From Flavobacterium sp. KJJ (GTDB lineage Bacteria; Bacteroidota; Bacteroidia; Flavobacteriales; Flavobacteriaceae), in assembly GCF_000708595.2 (NCBI RefSeq), contig NZ_JARP01000001.1, positions 372,001 to 436,000 on the forward strand: a DNA stretch of 64,000 bases, in the 5' to 3' direction. The notes under the pieces are model-generated. The model saw only the letters and a program-made list of their open reading frames with translations, did not search any database and was not told the origin of the DNA. The position numbers were made by a program, and so were the translations under genes. Below are positions 23,755-32,124 of this stretch, one piece after another. Position 1 is the stretch's first letter. Each line of letters begins with the position of its first letter.

Positions 23755-24534
23755 TTAATTGAATCGTAAGCGAACGTAAACATGCTTAATGCCTTTTTTA
23801 TCTGATTCTCTTTCATCAATTTCAAGAATATCTGTCAGCGATTTCAGCATTGGCGTAAGCTTAGAAAAACCGTAATTTCTAGGGTCAAATTCTGGTTTTT
23901 TCTTTACGATCAAGTTTCCAACATCACCTAAAAATGCCCAGCCATCATCGTCTTCAATATCTTCGATAGTGGCCTCGATAAGTTCGATAGTTTGTTTGTC
24001 AATTTTATGTAATGCTTTTTCAGCAGGTTTTTCAATAGGTTTTTTGGCATCTGCAGCAACTGCAGTTTTTGGTTTTTTCTTCTGGATAGCTCCGTCTAAA
24101 ACTTCAATATAAATAAATCTGTCGCAGGCTACAATAAAGGAGTTTGGCGTTTTCTTTTCTCCTATACCTATAACTTTCATGCCAGATTCTCGCAATCGAA
24201 TCGCCAAACGCGTAAAATCGCTGTCGCTGGAAACGATACAAAATCCGTCTAATTTTCCAGAATAAAGCAAATCCATCGCATCAATAATCAAAGCAGAGTC
24301 TGATGAATTTTTGCCAACTGTGTAGCTGTATTGCTGAATTGGCGTAATGGCATGTTCCAGCAAAACCGCTTTCCAGCCATTTGAGTTGGGCTTTGTCCAA
24401 TCAGCATAAATACGTTTTGTTGTGGGAGTTCCAAACTTCGCGATTTCTTCCATCATCCCTTTTACATTGCTGTACGGAACGTTATCGGCATCAATAAGAA
24501 CAGCAAGTTTTAATTCTCTATTGTTTGTTGGCAT
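23755..24534 (-). CDS. NYN-domain RNase-like protein with C-terminal LOTUS/OST-HTH domain
   Basis: The first 140 residues form a NYN (PIN-like) domain: LAVLIDADNVPYSN carries the first Asp cluster, SSDSALIIDAMDLLYSG and FCIVSSDSDFTRLA the others, matching the acidic metal site of NYN nucleases. After a Lys/Ala-rich linker (about 150-180) comes an OST-HTH/LOTUS-type winged helix (WAFLGDVGNLIVKKKP to LEIDER, about 195-250), a putative RNA-binding module. The pairing suggests a cytoplasmic RNA-processing or RNA-binding role. It leads the operon with the glutamate-synthase-like gene. A -7 box TATATTTG occurs on the minus strand at 24602-24609. Confidence 0.85.
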   Translation of the reverse strand: MPTNNRELKLAVLIDADNVPYSNVKGMMEEIAKFGTPTTKRIYADWTKPNSNGWKAVLLEHAITPIQQYSYTVGKNSSDSALIIDAMDLLYSGKLDGFCIVSSDSDFTRLAIRLRESGMKVIGIGEKKTPNSFIVACDRFIYIEVLDGAIQKKKPKTAVAADAKKPIEKPAEKALHKIDKQTIELIEATIEDIEDDDGWAFLGDVGNLIVKKKPEFDPRNYGFSKLTPMLKSLTDILEIDERESDKKGIKHVYVRLRFN

Positions 24535-25973: not shown

Positions 25974-26031
25974 TTTTATATTTAGAAACAATTTTAAATT
26001 ACATTTGAATTATACACATCTTGAGATCATA

Positions 26032-27054
26032 ATGATAAATTTTAAGCAATACATTCAGCCTCCAAACCAATCAGATTGGATTATTATAGCAACATACTGG
26101 ATTTTTAGTTTGTTTTTTTTAATTCCGGCTTATTTTATAACCGAAACTTTTACTGTTGCCCTGACTGCATTGCTTTATAACATTATAATCGATACCGTTT
26201 TTGTTTTGATTTTAATTTACATCATTCTGCCTTTAAGTTTAAAAAACAAAAAATTATGGATGCCAGTTTTGAGTGTAATTTTTTTGCTCTTTTTCTCGAT
26301 GATTTTTTACAGATTTGGTTACGGACTAATTCTTCATAAACCGCAAAGCTGGAATTTTCTGGATATTATTGGCGGTGTCATTTCTCAGGCACAAAGTTTG
26401 GGAATTTTACTTTCTGTTTTGGCAATGAAAAAGTTTTATGCCTCACAGCAAAACATTTTAAGTCTGGAAAAAGCAAATGCCGAAAGTAATCTAAAGGTTT
26501 TGAGTAATCAGATTGCACCGCATTTTTTGTTTAATAATCTAAATGTCCTGCAATCCTTAATTGATATTGATACCATCCAGGCAAAAGAATTTGTAAAGCA
26601 TTTATCTGCTATTTATCGTTATTTAATTCGCCATAAAGATGAAGAAGTAGTTACTTTAAATGAAGAAATGACATTTGCAGCTGATTATATTTATCTGCTC
26701 AATCAAAGATTTGGAAATGCATACGTTTTTAAAACTGAAATTACAGATCAAAATGCGCTGAAAAAATTAGTTCCGTCCTGTTGTCTGCAGATTTTATTAG
26801 AAAATATTATAAAACACAATCAGGGAAATGAACAAAATCCGTTAGTTACTTCAATCTTAATAACTGAAAATACGATCGAAATTAAAAATGCGATTCAAGA
26901 AAAAATGTTTCAGAATGATATTTCAGGAACAGGCTTGGAAAATTTGAATGAGCGTTATTTATTACTTTCAAATCAGTCGATTGCAATTTCTAAAAATGAT
27001 AACTTTACTGTGACTTTGCCTTTGATCAATCAATTAAAATCTTTTAAATCATGA
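26032..27054 (+). CDS. LytS-type membrane sensor histidine kinase
   Basis: The 340-residue protein has four hydrophobic helices in the N-terminal 140 residues (about 17-40, 48-72, 80-105 and 115-135) and no large periplasmic domain. Then comes the His_kinase (PF06580) region with phosphoacceptor His164 in NQIAPHFLFNNLNVLQ. The C-terminal HATPase has an N-box (LLENIIKHNQG) and GTGLENLNERY. I chose the ATG at 26032; a TTG at 26005 is in frame but gives a polar leader. The stop overlaps the response-regulator ATG by four bases (ATGA), so the pair is translationally coupled. Confidence 0.92.
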   Translation: MINFKQYIQPPNQSDWIIIATYWIFSLFFLIPAYFITETFTVALTALLYNIIIDTVFVLILIYIILPLSLKNKKLWMPVLSVIFLLFFSMIFYRFGYGLILHKPQSWNFLDIIGGVISQAQSLGILLSVLAMKKFYASQQNILSLEKANAESNLKVLSNQIAPHFLFNNLNVLQSLIDIDTIQAKEFVKHLSAIYRYLIRHKDEEVVTLNEEMTFAADYIYLLNQRFGNAYVFKTEITDQNALKKLVPSCCLQILLENIIKHNQGNEQNPLVTSILITENTIEIKNAIQEKMFQNDISGTGLENLNERYLLLSNQSIAISKNDNFTVTLPLINQLKSFKS

Positions 27055-27818
27055 ATGTTCTAATTATCGAAGATGAACCTTTGGCAGCAAAACAGCTTAT
27101 TAATTTTATAAAAGAAATAAACCCTGCGTTCACCATTTTAGAAACTTTGAACAGCATTTCGCAATGTTTTGAATGGTTTGAAAGCAATGCGCAGCCGGAT
27201 TTGATTTTTTCAGATATTGAATTGCTTGACGGCAATGTTTTTAATTTTTACGATAAACAAGTAATTAATTGCCCTATAATATTCAGCACCGCATATGATC
27301 AATTTTTAATGAAAGCTTTTGAAGGAAATGGCATTGCTTATTTATTAAAACCCCTGACAAAAGAGTCTGTTGAAAAAGCAATCTTAAAATGCAACACTTT
27401 GCAAACCAAATCAAAGTCAGGTATAAGCCATGATATTTTACAATTATTGCAAAAATCATTGCAGCAGGAAGCTTCAAGTATATATAAGCAAAGATTTACG
27501 ATCAAAACAAGAAATGGGATTTATTTACTGCCAGTTTCAGACATTGCTTTTATACAAGCAGATGGAGTGTTGCTTTATGCATTTGATTTTAACAATAAAA
27601 AATATCCCTTAACCGGAACTCTGATCGCCACAGAACAACAATTGAATCCCGAAATTTTTTTTAAAATAAACCGAAGTGATATTGTATCCATAAATGCAAT
27701 AGAAAAAATAGCACCTCATATTGGTGACAGATTAGCAATTTACATCAAAGGTCAGAAAGAATTTGCCGTTACAAGTGCACAAAAAACTTCTGTTTTTAGA
27801 AAATGGATTGACAGGTAA
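27051..27818 (+). CDS. LytTR-family response regulator
   Basis: The 255-residue protein has a receiver domain (MNVLIIEDEPLAAKQL) with acidic pocket Glu/Asp and phosphoacceptor Asp55 (LIFSDIELLDG), Thr/Ser in FSTAYDQF and Lys in YLLKPLTKE. A C-terminal LytTR DNA-binding domain follows (about 150-255; FTIKTRNGIYLLPVSDIAFIQ, then FKINRSDIVSINAI). It is the cognate regulator of the preceding LytS-type kinase. The target genes are unknown; the upstream GESH-motif gene is the nearest candidate. Confidence 0.93.
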   Translation: MNVLIIEDEPLAAKQLINFIKEINPAFTILETLNSISQCFEWFESNAQPDLIFSDIELLDGNVFNFYDKQVINCPIIFSTAYDQFLMKAFEGNGIAYLLKPLTKESVEKAILKCNTLQTKSKSGISHDILQLLQKSLQQEASSIYKQRFTIKTRNGIYLLPVSDIAFIQADGVLLYAFDFNNKKYPLTGTLIATEQQLNPEIFFKINRSDIVSINAIEKIAPHIGDRLAIYIKGQKEFAVTSAQKTSVFRKWIDR

Positions 27819-28001: not shown

Positions 28002-29264
28002 ATGGTAAAAGATTTATTCGAAAGAATCCAAAACAATAAAGGTCCTTTAGGAAAATGGGCATCACAAGCAGAAGGTTATTTTGTATTTCCTAAATTAGAA
28101 GGAGAGTTAGGTCCAAGAATGCAGTTTGGTGGGAAAAATATTTTAAATTGGAGTTTGAATGACTATTTAGGTCTTGCCAATCATCCAGAAGTTCGTCAAG
28201 CTGATATTGATGCTGCAACTCAATTTGGAGCAGCATACCCAATGGGTGCTCGTATGATGTCTGGACATACTAAATATCATGAACAATTAGAAAATGAATT
28301 AGCTGAGTTTGTAATGAAACCAGCAGCATATTTATTGAATTTTGGTTACCAAGGAATGGTGTCTACTATTGATGCTTTGGTTACTAAAAATGATATAATC
28401 GTATACGATGTAGATTCTCATGCTTGTATTATTGACGGTGTTCGTTTGCACATGGGTAAACGTTTTACATACAAACACAATGATCTTGAGAGTATGGAGA
28501 AAAACTTGCAGCGTGCTACTAAAATGGCTACTGAAACTGGAGGAGGAATCCTTTTTATTACAGAAGGTGTTTTTGGAATGCGCGGTCAGCAAGGAAAATT
28601 AAAAGAAATTGTTGCGCTTAAAGAAAAATATAATTTCCGTTTATTAGTTGATGATGCACACGGTTTTGGTACACTTGGTAAAACAGGAGCTGGAGCAGGT
28701 GAGGAGCAAGGAGTTCAAGACGGAATTGATGTTTACTTCTCTACTTTTGCAAAATCAATGGCAAATATTGGAGCTTTTGTAGCTGCAGATAAAGATATTA
28801 TCGATTATTTAAAATATAACTTGCGTTCTCAAATGTTTGCAAAAGCATTGCCAATGATTCAGACAATTGGTTCGTTGAAACGTTTAGAATTATTACGTAA
28901 TCACCCAGAATTAAAAGATAAACTTTGGGAAAATGTAAATGCATTGCAAAATGGTTTACGTTCTAGAAACTTTAATATTGGAGATACAAATACTTGTGTA
29001 ACACCAGTTTATTTAGAAGGAAGTGTTCCAGAAGCGATGGTAATGGTAAACGATTTAAGAGAAAACTACGGTATTTTCTTGTCGATTGTAATTTATCCGG
29101 TAATTCCAAAGGGAATTATTTTGTTGAGAATGATCCCTACAACTTCACATACACTTGCTGATATTGACGAAACTTTGGTTGCTTTTGAAGCAATTCGTGA
29201 AAAATTAGAAAACGGCACATATAAAGAAATTGCAAGCAGAACAAAAGTAGATTTAGATGCTTAA
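28002..29264 (+). CDS. Alpha-oxoamine synthase: serine palmitoyltransferase or cysteate acyltransferase
   Basis: The 420-residue PLP enzyme belongs to the alpha-oxoamine synthase family, which condenses an amino acid with an acyl thioester and loses CO2. Motifs: GPRMQFGGKNILNWSLNDYLG, GARMMSGHTKYHEQLE, DDAHGFGTLGKTGAGAGE and the PLP lysine Lys251 in STFAKSMANIGAF. The sequence resembles the Bacteroidota serine palmitoyltransferase branch that starts sphingolipids. Close relatives in Flavobacterium condense cysteate instead, giving capnine and sulfonolipids needed for efficient gliding; motifs alone do not separate these. A nearby GNAT gene (29979) fits the next, N-acylation step. A -7 box TATTTTTG lies at 27956-27963. 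Confidence 0.88.
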   Translation: MVKDLFERIQNNKGPLGKWASQAEGYFVFPKLEGELGPRMQFGGKNILNWSLNDYLGLANHPEVRQADIDAATQFGAAYPMGARMMSGHTKYHEQLENELAEFVMKPAAYLLNFGYQGMVSTIDALVTKNDIIVYDVDSHACIIDGVRLHMGKRFTYKHNDLESMEKNLQRATKMATETGGGILFITEGVFGMRGQQGKLKEIVALKEKYNFRLLVDDAHGFGTLGKTGAGAGEEQGVQDGIDVYFSTFAKSMANIGAFVAADKDIIDYLKYNLRSQMFAKALPMIQTIGSLKRLELLRNHPELKDKLWENVNALQNGLRSRNFNIGDTNTCVTPVYLEGSVPEAMVMVNDLRENYGIFLSIVIYPVIPKGIILLRMIPTTSHTLADIDETLVAFEAIREKLENGTYKEIASRTKVDLDA

Positions 29265-29305
29265 TTTCTTATACAAATAAATTCCAAACATGGGAATTAT
29301 GTAAC

Positions 29306-29339
29306 AAAATCCATTCGTTATACGAGTGGATTTTTTTTT
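29306..29339 (+). terminator. Intrinsic terminator after the oxoamine synthase
   Basis: Arms 29306-29317 and 29323-29334 pair over 12 bp (one U-G pair) with a 5-base loop, followed by a run of T to 29339. Confidence 0.85.
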
Positions 29340-29381
29340 ATTTGGAGTAATTTTATAATCGTAACCAGTAAATAAAAAATT

Positions 29382-29864
29382 ATGAAAAAAGTATTAGCAA
29401 TTACAATAATTATTTTAAGTGTTTTTACTTCTTGTAAAAAAGATCAAGTAGCAGAGCCAGTAGAAATTGCACCAAACCCTCCAAAAGAAGCTCAAATTGT
29501 TGAGCCAGCAGGAGATCAATGTTATGAATCGAGAACAAACGGAAATATTATTGAATTGAGTTTTAATGTAAACTCTCATCAGGAAGTAAACGGAAAACTG
29601 AGTTATAATATATCTGGAAAAGATAAAAATGAAGGAAGTTTAATTGGGAACATGAAAGGCGATACACTAATTGCAGATTATACTTTTATGTCTGAGGGAG
29701 TTTCATCTGTTAGAGAAGTTGCTTTTTTAGAAAGAGAAGGAGTATTAATTGAAGGCTATGCAGAAGCTGTAGAAGCAAATGGGAAGGTGTCTTTTAAAGA
29801 TAAAAAACAATTAAAATTTGATCCAAAAAATACTTTGACAAAAGTTGACTGTAAAGCTGAGTAA
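29382..29864 (+). CDS. Small lipoprotein of unknown function
   Basis: The 160-residue product has a lipobox with Cys18 (SVFTSCKKDQ) and a Pro-rich linker (EPVEIAPNPPKEAQ). The remaining 110 residues contain the paired cysteines DQCYESRTNG near the start and KVDCKAE at the end, probably a disulphide closing a beta domain (IIELSFNVNSHQEVNGKLSY). No family recognised. It lies between two terminators, so it is a monocistronic unit. Confidence 0.8.
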   Translation: MKKVLAITIIILSVFTSCKKDQVAEPVEIAPNPPKEAQIVEPAGDQCYESRTNGNIIELSFNVNSHQEVNGKLSYNISGKDKNEGSLIGNMKGDTLIADYTFMSEGVSSVREVAFLEREGVLIEGYAEAVEANGKVSFKDKKQLKFDPKNTLTKVDCKAE

Positions 29865-29886
29865 ACAATTTTTTGTTTATAAAGCT

Positions 29887-29918
29887 AAAAAACCATTCTT
29901 TGGGGAGAATGGTTTTTT
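29887..29918 (+). terminator. Intrinsic terminator after the lipoprotein
   Basis: Arms 29887-29899 and 29906-29918 form a perfect 13-bp stem with a 6-base loop followed by T's; the A-rich left arm also lets it work on the other strand. Confidence 0.85.
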
Positions 29919-29978
29919 TTGTTTTAATATTTTTGAATAATCGCTACTGAGACTAAATACTGAGACTGAATACTTCTT

Positions 29979-31097
29979 TTAAAGGTATTTAAGATACGTT
30001 TTTCTCTGACAGTGAATCTTCGGGTCAAAGTTTTTCCAAAGTAAATGAATTGCTGTATTCTCTGCTAATTCTGGAGTTCTGATACAATTTTGAATTCCTT
30101 TTTCAGAGAAGGTTTTAAAATATTCATCAAAGATAATAGCTGTAACACCTTTGTTTTGATAATCAGGGTGAACTCCTATAAGATAAAAAACAACATCTTT
30201 GCTCTTTTTTCTAGCTCTCAAAAGATGAATAAATCCAAATGGGAATAACTTTCCTTTTGCTTTCTGCAATGCCTCAGAAAAACTTGGCATTACTATACTA
30301 AAAGCAATTAAATTATCGTCCTTATCTACCACAAATTTGATGTATTCTGGATTGATAAAACTGATGTATTTCTTCTTAAAATATTCCTTCTGAATGTCTG
30401 AAATTGCCACAAAAGAAGCTAGTTTAGCATATGATTCATTAAACAAGTCAAACATTTTGTCAACGTGAGGCATAATGTCTTTTGTTTTTGTAAATGTCAG
30501 CGATCTTAAACCATATCTTTTTTTAATTAATTCTTGAGCTTTCAGGAAAAATTCTGGATGAACATTCGAAAATGGAAAAATACTTTCAATATATTCTTTC
30601 TCTACCTGAAATCCTAATTGCTCAAAATGAGTTACATAATACGGATTGTTGTACCAAGTAATCATAGTTCCCATTTGATCGTAGCCTTCTGTCAAAACTC
30701 CAACCTTATCTAAATTTGAAAAACCCATTGGTCCTTCAGCGTGTTCTAAATTGTTTTGTCTTCCTAATTCAAATACTTTTTCAAGTAAAGCTTTAGTTAC
30801 TTCAATGTCATCAATAACATCAAACCAGCCAAAACGAACTTTTCTTTTGTGTTGATTATTTACTTCTGCCCAATTGATAATTGCAGTAATTCGGCCAACA
30901 ATTTTGTTGTTTTTGTATGCTAAATAAAAGTAAGCCTCAGCATTTTCAAATGCTGGGTTTTTAGTTTTATCAAATGATTCTAATTCATCGGCAATAATAG
31001 GCGGTACCCAATATGGATTATCTTTGTATAACGAAAACGGGAATTTGATATAATCTGTTAATTCCTTTTTAGTTTTGGCTTCTTTAATTGTAATCAT
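29979..31097 (-). CDS. Large GNAT-family acyltransferase (possible ceramide-synthase-like)
   Basis: The 372-residue protein opens with FPFSLYKDNPYWVPPIIADE and FYLAYKNNKIVGRITAI, an N-terminal half-GNAT, and closes with a second GNAT unit in which the acyl-CoA loop reads YLIGVHPDYQNKGVTAIIFDEY. This double-GNAT, WVPP-bearing layout resembles, as I recall it, the bacterial ceramide synthases (bCerS, GNAT superfamily) of Caulobacter and Bacteroides. Being 715 bp from the oxoamine synthase end, it could N-acylate the long-chain base. It follows the outer-membrane protein gene by 49 bp on the same strand. The name is an inference; a general N-acetyltransferase is the safe call. Confidence 0.7.
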   Translation of the reverse strand: MITIKEAKTKKELTDYIKFPFSLYKDNPYWVPPIIADELESFDKTKNPAFENAEAYFYLAYKNNKIVGRITAIINWAEVNNQHKRKVRFGWFDVIDDIEVTKALLEKVFELGRQNNLEHAEGPMGFSNLDKVGVLTEGYDQMGTMITWYNNPYYVTHFEQLGFQVEKEYIESIFPFSNVHPEFFLKAQELIKKRYGLRSLTFTKTKDIMPHVDKMFDLFNESYAKLASFVAISDIQKEYFKKKYISFINPEYIKFVVDKDDNLIAFSIVMPSFSEALQKAKGKLFPFGFIHLLRARKKSKDVVFYLIGVHPDYQNKGVTAIIFDEYFKTFSEKGIQNCIRTPELAENTAIHLLWKNFDPKIHCQRKTYLKYL

Positions 31098-31146: not shown

Positions 31147-32124
31147 TTATTCGTATTTAGATTTACGTTTTCTTTCTTGTTCCTGATAATCAGTTTCACG
31201 ACGTTCCATATCGTTGTCTTTGTTCTTTTTGGCTTTTTCTTCCTTTTTAAATTCCATTTGCTTTTCCTTGTAGCGCCCGTCATAGCGCCAAGAAATACCA
31301 ACTCCTCCGTAAAATATAGAAGGTGTATTTTTAAAATTCGTACTTAAGGAAGCATCAATCTGCATGTCAGGACTTAACAGATAAGCGGCGCCGCCACGAA
31401 CTATACCATCGCTGTAAAAATCACTTTTATAACCTTGGTTTTCAACAAAACCAGACCATTTGTCATTAAATCCGTGTGTCAAAGTCAGTACGTAACCATA
31501 ACTAGGATAATCTGTACTTATATAGTCAGCGATGATATTAGTTACAAAAACCCATTTTCCGCCTCCAAAAAGATTCTGAGTAACCAAAGCTATTTTAGGA
31601 GAAATACTCGATTCTGGAGAAAATGAATACGGATTATCAGCACCGACAAAATTAGCTCCTGCAAATATCGAAACTGCTGGAATTAGCGAATGCCAGTCAA
31701 ATTTATGATTGGCTTTATAGCTGTAGATGTTTTTGGCTTTTGTGTAATTTTTATAAGGATCATAAATCAAATATTTAGCTCCTAAAACCGTTTGTCTGAA
31801 ATTGTTTTTTTTATAACTGGTATACGGAGTATCAAAATTTTCCATTTGATATTCAAGATCAAGTATGAATTCTAGTTTTTCAAGAAATGCACCATATCTA
31901 AGGGTTAAATCTGTTCCGAAACCGCTTGCATCATAATCAAGCAAATCGTGTTTTTCTTTGATACCGTATACGCCAAATTCAGCCTGAAATACTGATTTTC
32001 CAACTGCATATGCAGACATAGTTTCACCAGGACGGTTAGAATTAATTACATCTGTGTATTGTGCGAAAAAAATTTGGGGCGCAAAAAAAAGAGCTGTAAT
32101 AAATAAGTTTTTAATTTTTAACAT
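31147..32124 (-). CDS. Outer-membrane beta-barrel protein of the MetA/phenol-degradation family
   Basis: The 325-residue protein has a signal peptide (FITALFFAPQIFFAQ) followed by VINSNRPGETMSAYAVGKSVFQAE and alternating amphipathic strands typical of the PF13557-type transporter barrels, ending in SIFYGGVGISWRYDGR. After this barrel comes an unusual 40-residue tail of Lys, Glu, Arg and Asp (MEFKKEEKAKKNKDNDMERR and on). The tail may project into the periplasm. Substrate unknown. A -7 box TACATTTG is readable on the minus strand at 32161-32168. GNAT lies 49 bp downstream. Confidence 0.78.
   Translation of the reverse strand: MLKIKNLFITALFFAPQIFFAQYTDVINSNRPGETMSAYAVGKSVFQAEFGVYGIKEKHDLLDYDASGFGTDLTLRYGAFLEKLEFILDLEYQMENFDTPYTSYKKNNFRQTVLGAKYLIYDPYKNYTKAKNIYSYKANHKFDWHSLIPAVSIFAGANFVGADNPYSFSPESSISPKIALVTQNLFGGGKWVFVTNIIADYISTDYPSYGYVLTLTHGFNDKWSGFVENQGYKSDFYSDGIVRGGAAYLLSPDMQIDASLSTNFKNTPSIFYGGVGISWRYDGRYKEKQMEFKKEEKAKKNKDNDMERRETDYQEQERKRKSKYE

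Follow-up and report, generated by a model that had tools for sequence, protein, structure and literature searches.

A predicted cysteate fatty acyltransferase faces a candidate capnine N-acyltransferase of the bacterial ceramide-synthase family in Flavobacterium sp. KJJ

The window analysed here is a stretch of 64,000 nucleotides from Flavobacterium sp. KJJ (contig NZ_JARP01000001.1, positions 372,001–436,000; host genome of 4.6 Mb on ten contigs), and the subject is a pair of its genes that converge on one another, one for an alpha-oxoamine synthase and one for a protein of the GNAT family, hereafter the GNAT (Table 1). A further open reading frame (ORF) of 160 amino acids (aa) and two terminator-like hairpins separate the two, and a gene for an outer-membrane barrel lies directly upstream of the GNAT. 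Both main ORFs, with their coordinates, strands and lengths and with Lys251 in the synthase, were found as an earlier note made from the sequence alone had described them.

Table 1. Features of the locus, in window coordinates
Feature	Position	Strand	Remarks
Predicted cysteate fatty acyltransferase (CFAT/SulA/CapB), 420 aa	28002-29264	+	alpha-oxoamine synthase ORF; Lys251 and Lys281
Terminator-like hairpin after CFAT	29306-29334	+	simple pattern scan, pattern match only
160-aa ORF between CFAT and GNAT	29382-29864	+	N-terminus lipoprotein-like
Terminator-like hairpin between the 160-aa ORF and the GNAT 3' end	29887-29918	+	simple pattern scan, pattern match only
GNAT-family protein, 372 aa, candidate capnine or 3-ketocapnine N-acyltransferase	29979-31097	-	bacterial ceramide-synthase family
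Outer-membrane barrel gene	31147-32124	-	PF13557 at 1e-29; 49 bp upstream of GNAT, same strand

Its sequence identifies the oxoamine synthase as a cysteate fatty acyltransferase (CFAT, also SulA or CapB), predicted to be the first committed enzyme of sulfonolipid synthesis. Its best match among solved chains (phmmer against the PDB) was 28eh, a 'Cysteate-C-fatty acyltransferase' (715 bits), followed by 7u7h (595 bits), which we take to be the structure of Alistipes SulA, and by Spt (229 bits). It fell below the cut-offs of the curated models for Spt (NF047600; 286 bits, cut-off 640), Kbl (282 bits, cut-off 460) and BioF (278 bits, cut-off 426). The lysine that binds pyridoxal phosphate, Lys251, is present within TFAKS, and so is Lys281; among active-site residues, only this position has been described as clearly setting SulA apart from Spt (PMC9304779). 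The comparison at substrate-site residues that the earlier note had proposed was made on a 75-row alignment limited to ORFs no shorter than 380 aa in loci L001–L125; each row represents a locus, and certain rows repeat the same gene. At position 281 every one of the 51 rows of the CFAT clade (window included) had Lys and each of the 22 Spt rows had Ala, with Asn in both rows of the genome's own Kbl-like paralogue. The nearest other oxoamine synthases in the genome are 32% and 27% identical to CFAT; the nearest is the Kbl-like one and the third match (27%, contig C2) stands outside the alignment. Of the other SulA active-site residues (16 rows), His140 and Arg376 were invariant and Asn53 nearly so, though all three are common to Spt as well and are not diagnostic alone.

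Compared with known CFAT/SulA/CapB enzymes (Fjoh_2419, Alistipes alfi_1224, the Chryseobacterium and Capnocytophaga enzymes; PDB 28eh, 7u7h), the window CFAT is alike in sequence and in Lys251, Lys281, Asn53, His140 and Arg376, and no difference was found; it is an unremarkable example of a known family, and its step is already known. Deletion of Fjoh_2419 in F. johnsoniae led to the loss of sulfonolipids (PMC9304779, PMC12045153). An identity as Spt was rejected on the score and on Lys281 in place of Ala, and one as Kbl or BioF on both cut-offs, residue 281 and the match to the solved CFAT. Lys281, together with Asn in the Kbl-like paralogue, rules out Kbl and favours sulfonolipid over sphingolipid synthesis, the two lipids between which the earlier note had not decided. 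No Spt was seen in the window genome, and in a phylum sample no genome of the window's family passed the curated Spt cut-off, a strict one that 10 of 296 genomes passed, all from other families. Since no Spt was seen, the product here should be acylated capnine and not ceramide.

Elsewhere in the sample, CFAT with Lys281 formed the C-terminal part of a 1143-aa protein (L115, 2145–5576, plus strand, genome G384) and of a 1108-aa protein (L116, 5571–8897, minus strand, genome G353), and in a third genome (G319) the CFAT match lay inside a 1171-aa frame. The remainder of the L115 protein consists of a fatty acyl-AMP ligase (FAAL) and an acyl carrier domain, a natural fusion that would feed the acyl chain to CFAT.

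The GNAT matched only generic acetyltransferases in Pfam and NCBIfam, with Acetyltransf_1 at 6e-7 on two stretches (best 247–341); a 'double GNAT' architecture appears plausible. No solved chain matched it at 0.001 or better, by sequence or by profile, and a single-sequence AlphaFold model (mean predicted local distance difference test score, pLDDT, 37.9) was unusable for the fold. Judged by profile and pairwise alignment, the protein is a full-length homologue of the bacterial ceramide synthases (bCerS/aca) of Caulobacter (CC_1154) and E. coli (YghO), which are listed as the same N-acyltransferase gene (PMC9386255). Its profile matched that of a proteobacterial bCerS set with 100% probability over 371 columns (hhalign), and in a single comparison it was 26% identical over 312 residues to the GNAT of the ceramide locus of C. 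vibrioides OR37 (E 7e-31); the pairwise comparisons in the CC_1154/YghO homology test gave E 7e-31 and 2e-35. The WVPP-type opening from which the earlier note had recognised the family lies at residues 30–33 and recurs in varied form across the family, and its proposed comparison with Caulobacter bCerS bore the likeness out. The Caulobacter genomes were reached through PopZ, and the GNAT was identified from the gene order at the locus instead of a locus tag; four of the five genomes searched had a match, and one metagenome-assembled genome of C. vibrioides had none. In OR37 the order is CerR, an acyl carrier protein (ACP) and SPT, then LptF, LptG and GNAT, in agreement with the published numbers CC_1164, 1163, 1162 and 1154 (PMC9386255).

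Distant homologues of the GNAT were also found by tblastn in plasmid sphingolipid loci of E. coli, Sphingomonas parapaucimobilis, Pseudomonas sp. BYT-5 and Rahnella, all of the SPT-ACP-CerR-FAAL type, and the E. coli yghO locus holds SPT, ACP, an epimerase, FAAL and LptFG alongside. E. coli BL21(DE3), used as expression host in PMC11211663, itself carries an spt locus whose presumed N-acyltransferase is yghO (PMC9386255), a background that could imitate the acylation step. A Roseomonas homologue lies in an LptFG-desaturase locus, with SPT absent from the stretch shown. The window genome has no second copy of the GNAT, by single sequence or by profile. The window GNAT shares with bCerS/aca the full-length profile match, the WVPP-type segment and the genomic link to an oxoamine synthase; it is, however, only about 25% identical, falls outside the proteobacterial bCerS clade (the two form separate clades in an unrooted tree), lacks an insertion that the proteobacterial proteins carry in the C-terminal GNAT motif, and is partnered with CFAT (cysteate) instead of Spt (serine). 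The role proposed for it below resembles that of OlsB, OlsF and GlsB, which N-acylate in amino-lipid synthesis (PMC11631085), but among the family models of Pfam and NCBIfam it matched none of the OlsB/OlsF/GlsB type.

The distribution of the GNAT was explored in an order-level sample of 146 genomes (90% completeness requested), with CFAT called above 400 bits and a close GNAT above 170 bits; here as elsewhere the presence of CFAT and Spt is defined by similarity thresholds, not by names. CFAT occurred in 79 genomes and a close GNAT in 63, all 63 of which have CFAT, and none of the 67 genomes lacking CFAT had a close GNAT. The corresponding Fisher value (2e-26) is no fair probability, as relatedness is uncorrected and at least 19 of the 67 genomes without CFAT are reduced ones of 0.6 Mb or less, which say little. 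One close GNAT (G046) has an internal stop, and two from family f2 that were counted as close (G013, G030) are 31–33% identical; the one of them placed in the tree (L023) lies outside the close clade.

Since relatives with 35–42% identity occur in genomes without CFAT at phylum level, the GNAT tree was rebuilt with 22 further rows as a challenge, 14 of them from CFAT-lacking genomes of the phylum scan (unrooted, 73 sequences; relatives labelled 'alone' had no Spt or CFAT matched in the stretch covered). The clade of the window GNAT comprised nineteen rows, all from CFAT genomes and from eight family codes (support 100/98), and the relatives from CFAT-lacking genomes fell in other clades. The GNAT's own clade follows CFAT; 'GNAT only with CFAT' holds in the order sample but was rejected as a phylum-wide rule, given those more distant relatives. 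A far GNAT clade (~25% identical; L246–L248, L251–L253, L024, L025, L124, L125) was seen in CFAT genomes without a close GNAT and beside it in others. In two genomes without a GNAT (L287, L288) a protein with two VOC domains adjoins CFAT; it was considered as a replacement. The L287 protein had no NCBIfam match at 1e-50. It may be a neighbour from tyrosine catabolism, and an HgmA_N match adjoins CFAT in L286.

Of the 63 genomes that carry both genes, 29 were checked for synteny (27 of the window's family, G018 and G014). CFAT and the GNAT were convergent neighbours in 22, namely 21 of the 27 same-family genomes and G018, which belongs to another family, with gaps down to 46–99 bp where no gene intervenes. 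In the f5 genomes the two are not adjacent (at least 22 kb apart or on other contigs, by the listed coordinates). The earlier note had placed the genes for the first and the presumed N-acylation step side by side. They form a conserved convergent pair; the genes are not strictly adjacent in the window, and a CFAT-GNAT operon was rejected on account of their convergence and of the ORF and hairpins between them. In one genome (G294), a 532-aa protein with reverse transcriptase and Mrr restriction-endonuclease parts adjoins a GNAT of the CFAT clade (L121, 8312–9910, minus strand).

The GNATs found downstream of Spt in Bacteroidota belong to the same family as the window GNAT, with the difference that they lie on the same strand as Spt and often overlap it, whereas the window GNAT faces CFAT. 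Among the ten loci with an Spt over the curated cut-off, eight have a same-strand family GNAT following it, four of these with a 4-bp overlap. Across two phylum scans of 296 genomes each, 46 of 53 checkable Bacteroidota GNATs among the matches listed followed immediately after Spt (checkable being those of the 83 GNAT rows for which an Spt row was also among these matches); the Spt-GNAT loci examined include L096–L101, L104–L108 and L111. For Spt and GNAT, this proximity differs from an earlier view, repeated in PMC11334938, that in Bacteroidota the three genes for ceramide synthesis do not lie near one another. In two Spt operons, L106 (genome G188) and L117 (genome G026), the GNATs are 40–41% identical to the window's and an epimerase-type reductase gene comes next; Spt exceeds the NF047600 cut-off in L106 and falls short of it in L117 (545 bits), and both genomes also carry CFAT elsewhere. 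The same three-gene order occurs on a plasmid of the actinobacterium Rubrobacter radiotolerans (L261, 4707–8074), where an Spt-like gene, a GNAT and an NAD(P)-dependent oxidoreductase stand in a row near CRISPR-associated genes.

Further genes of the pathway were sought around CFAT. A PALP-family enzyme precedes CFAT in 17 of the 43 loci for which at least 1 kb upstream was covered (15 of 40 distinct genomes or records), and 10 of the 13 PALP-family neighbours scanned passed the NCBIfam cut-off for the cysteate synthase CapA (600 bits). Eight of these come from same-family genomes in which capA-capB faces the GNAT (L044–L049, L052, L054), all eight CapA proteins scoring 641–661 bits; two further proteins scored 632 and 631 bits, and for the other three CapA was the best model at scores below the cut-off (543, 455 and 357 bits). 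A CapA-like gene was not found anywhere in the 64-kb window at 1e-8, nor did TIGR03844, the model for archaeal-type cysteate synthase, match in the window genome. In other genomes of the family, the capA position is that taken in the window by a His_kinase/LytTR two-component pair just upstream of CFAT (26005–27818, plus strand). In G018 a short-chain reductase (149 bits to the KDSR model, cut-off 400) precedes the CFAT that faces the GNAT. The KDSR model found 26 reductases in the window genome, the best at 263 bits, and these are candidates only.

Sulfonolipids are one of the two dominant classes of outer-membrane lipids in F. johnsoniae (PMC12045153) and have been implicated in gliding, in the development of choanoflagellates and in inflammation of the gut (PMC9304779). 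Capnocytophaga is a genus with free capnine (PMC9304779); the idea that G048, a genome without the GNAT, might belong to it was dropped, the CFAT of G048 being a different protein from that of PDB 28eh. Their synthesis has been described as a pathway of CapA, CapB/CFAT and CapC/KCR (PMC9304779, PMC11211663, PMC10191378, PMC12927429), which stops at capnine. The accessible parts of these four papers name no gene for capnine N-acylation, though preprints lay outside the search and other papers on the pathway may say more; with no such enzyme named there, the GNAT clade becomes a strong candidate for the capnine N-acyltransferase, which its company would tie to sulfonolipid instead of sphingolipid synthesis. 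In the scheme we propose, CFAT would condense cysteate with an acyl thioester to 3-ketocapnine, as is established for the family (the acyl donor of Alistipes SulA being acyl-ACP); a short-chain reductase encoded elsewhere would convert this to capnine, a known step; and the GNAT would acylate capnine or 3-ketocapnine at the amino group with a second chain, plain or 3-hydroxy, giving a finished sulfonolipid of the sulfobacin type.

For the GNAT, we infer the substrate, the acyl donor and whether it would act before or after the reductase. ACP thioesters have been argued to be the donors in these bacteria (PMC9304779). With regard to order, acylation is reported to come first in Caulobacter, where CerR is periplasmic (PMC11087976), whereas work on capnine, as told in PMC9304779, favours reduction before acylation. 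With a specific gene proposed for N-acylation, two questions become testable, namely what enzyme completes the lipid and whether reduction precedes or follows acylation, and free capnine and acylated sulfonolipid could be separated genetically in studies of gliding and of hosts.

Overall, we consider it likely that both enzymes encoded at the locus serve sulfonolipid synthesis and that the GNAT finishes the lipid by N-acylation of capnine or 3-ketocapnine. Several observations weigh against this. CFAT and the GNAT converge and are not co-transcribed, and capA lay near CFAT (1.5 kb upstream) in none of 16 loci of the window's genus. Outside the 19-row clade fell four further GNATs from CFAT genomes, those of the Spt operons L106 and L117, and 12 far GNATs. 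Among the 79 order-sample genomes with CFAT, 16 had no close GNAT; in a family-profile search of ten of these, five had no relative, one had a weak partial match and four had a far relative, and the remaining six have far relatives by single sequence. In CFAT genomes without any GNAT relative, N-acylation must fall to a different enzyme, unless the product there is free capnine. Finally, genomes without CFAT contain relatives at 35–42% identity, which are closer to the window GNAT than Caulobacter's is, and those in Bacteroides, on a Chloroflexota plasmid and in Vescimonas have no oxoamine synthase in the stretches shown.

The last of these points, with the CFAT genomes that have no GNAT, would also be expected if the GNAT N-acylated some other amine, be it a different amino lipid, a small molecule or a protein. 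Its position by CFAT would then reflect inherited gene order, with the capnine N-acyltransferase encoded elsewhere; the standalone relatives, and a barrel partner kept more often than the CFAT partner in the same family, agree with this. We nevertheless regard it as unlikely, in view of a clade exclusive to CFAT genomes across eight family codes, the lack of any CFAT-lacking genome with a close GNAT in the order sample, the capA-capB-GNAT clusters, and the general link of the GNAT family to Spt. Homology to bCerS, and the 40–41% identical GNATs of the Spt operons L106 and L117, could be taken to mean that the GNAT is a true ceramide synthase acting on the product of Spt in an organism that makes ordinary sphingolipids. 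With a CFAT that has Lys281, a nearest paralogue that is Kbl-like and no genome of the family among the ten over the strict Spt cut-off, this seems very improbable. That the oxoamine synthase might be of the Kbl or BioF type, and the pair unrelated to lipids, draws on matches of 282 and 278 bits such as any member of the superfamily gives, both below cut-off, as against 715 bits to the solved CFAT and Lys281 where the separate Kbl-like paralogue has Asn; the grouping with Kbl that the earlier note had set against its own assignment was not found, and this alternative can be regarded as already refuted, with a probability close to nil.

Returning to N-acylation of capnine or 3-ketocapnine by the GNAT, the barrel gene upstream may bear on how the lipid might travel. 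Of 41 same-family loci with enough sequence (window included), 40 have a homologue of the PF13557 barrel no more than 1.5 kb upstream of the GNAT. It stays by the GNAT also where CFAT has moved away, and within the family it is kept upstream of the GNAT more often than CFAT is kept beside it. At 40 other loci, nearly all outside the family, no barrel homologue matched better than E 0.9. The barrel gene to which the earlier note had pointed is linked to the GNAT by real synteny, confined to one family: the barrel is a family-level synteny partner of the GNAT and not a general part of the pathway. A barrel-GNAT unit facing capA-capB could conceivably be a make-and-deliver module, in which the GNAT is devoted to N-acylating the sulfonolipid and the PF13557 barrel assists in delivering the completed lipid to the outer membrane. 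We hold this to be doubtful; if true, one locus would couple the last synthetic step to delivery of the sulfonolipid.

The 160-aa ORF between the two genes has an N-terminus that, read by eye, looks like a lipoprotein signal. Homologues were present in 18 of 50 same-family GNAT loci, limited to part of the window's genus, and the ORF probably stands outside the sulfonolipid pathway. On the minus strand, the window also encodes a 259-aa protein with NYN nuclease-like and OST-HTH/LOTUS domains (23755–24534).

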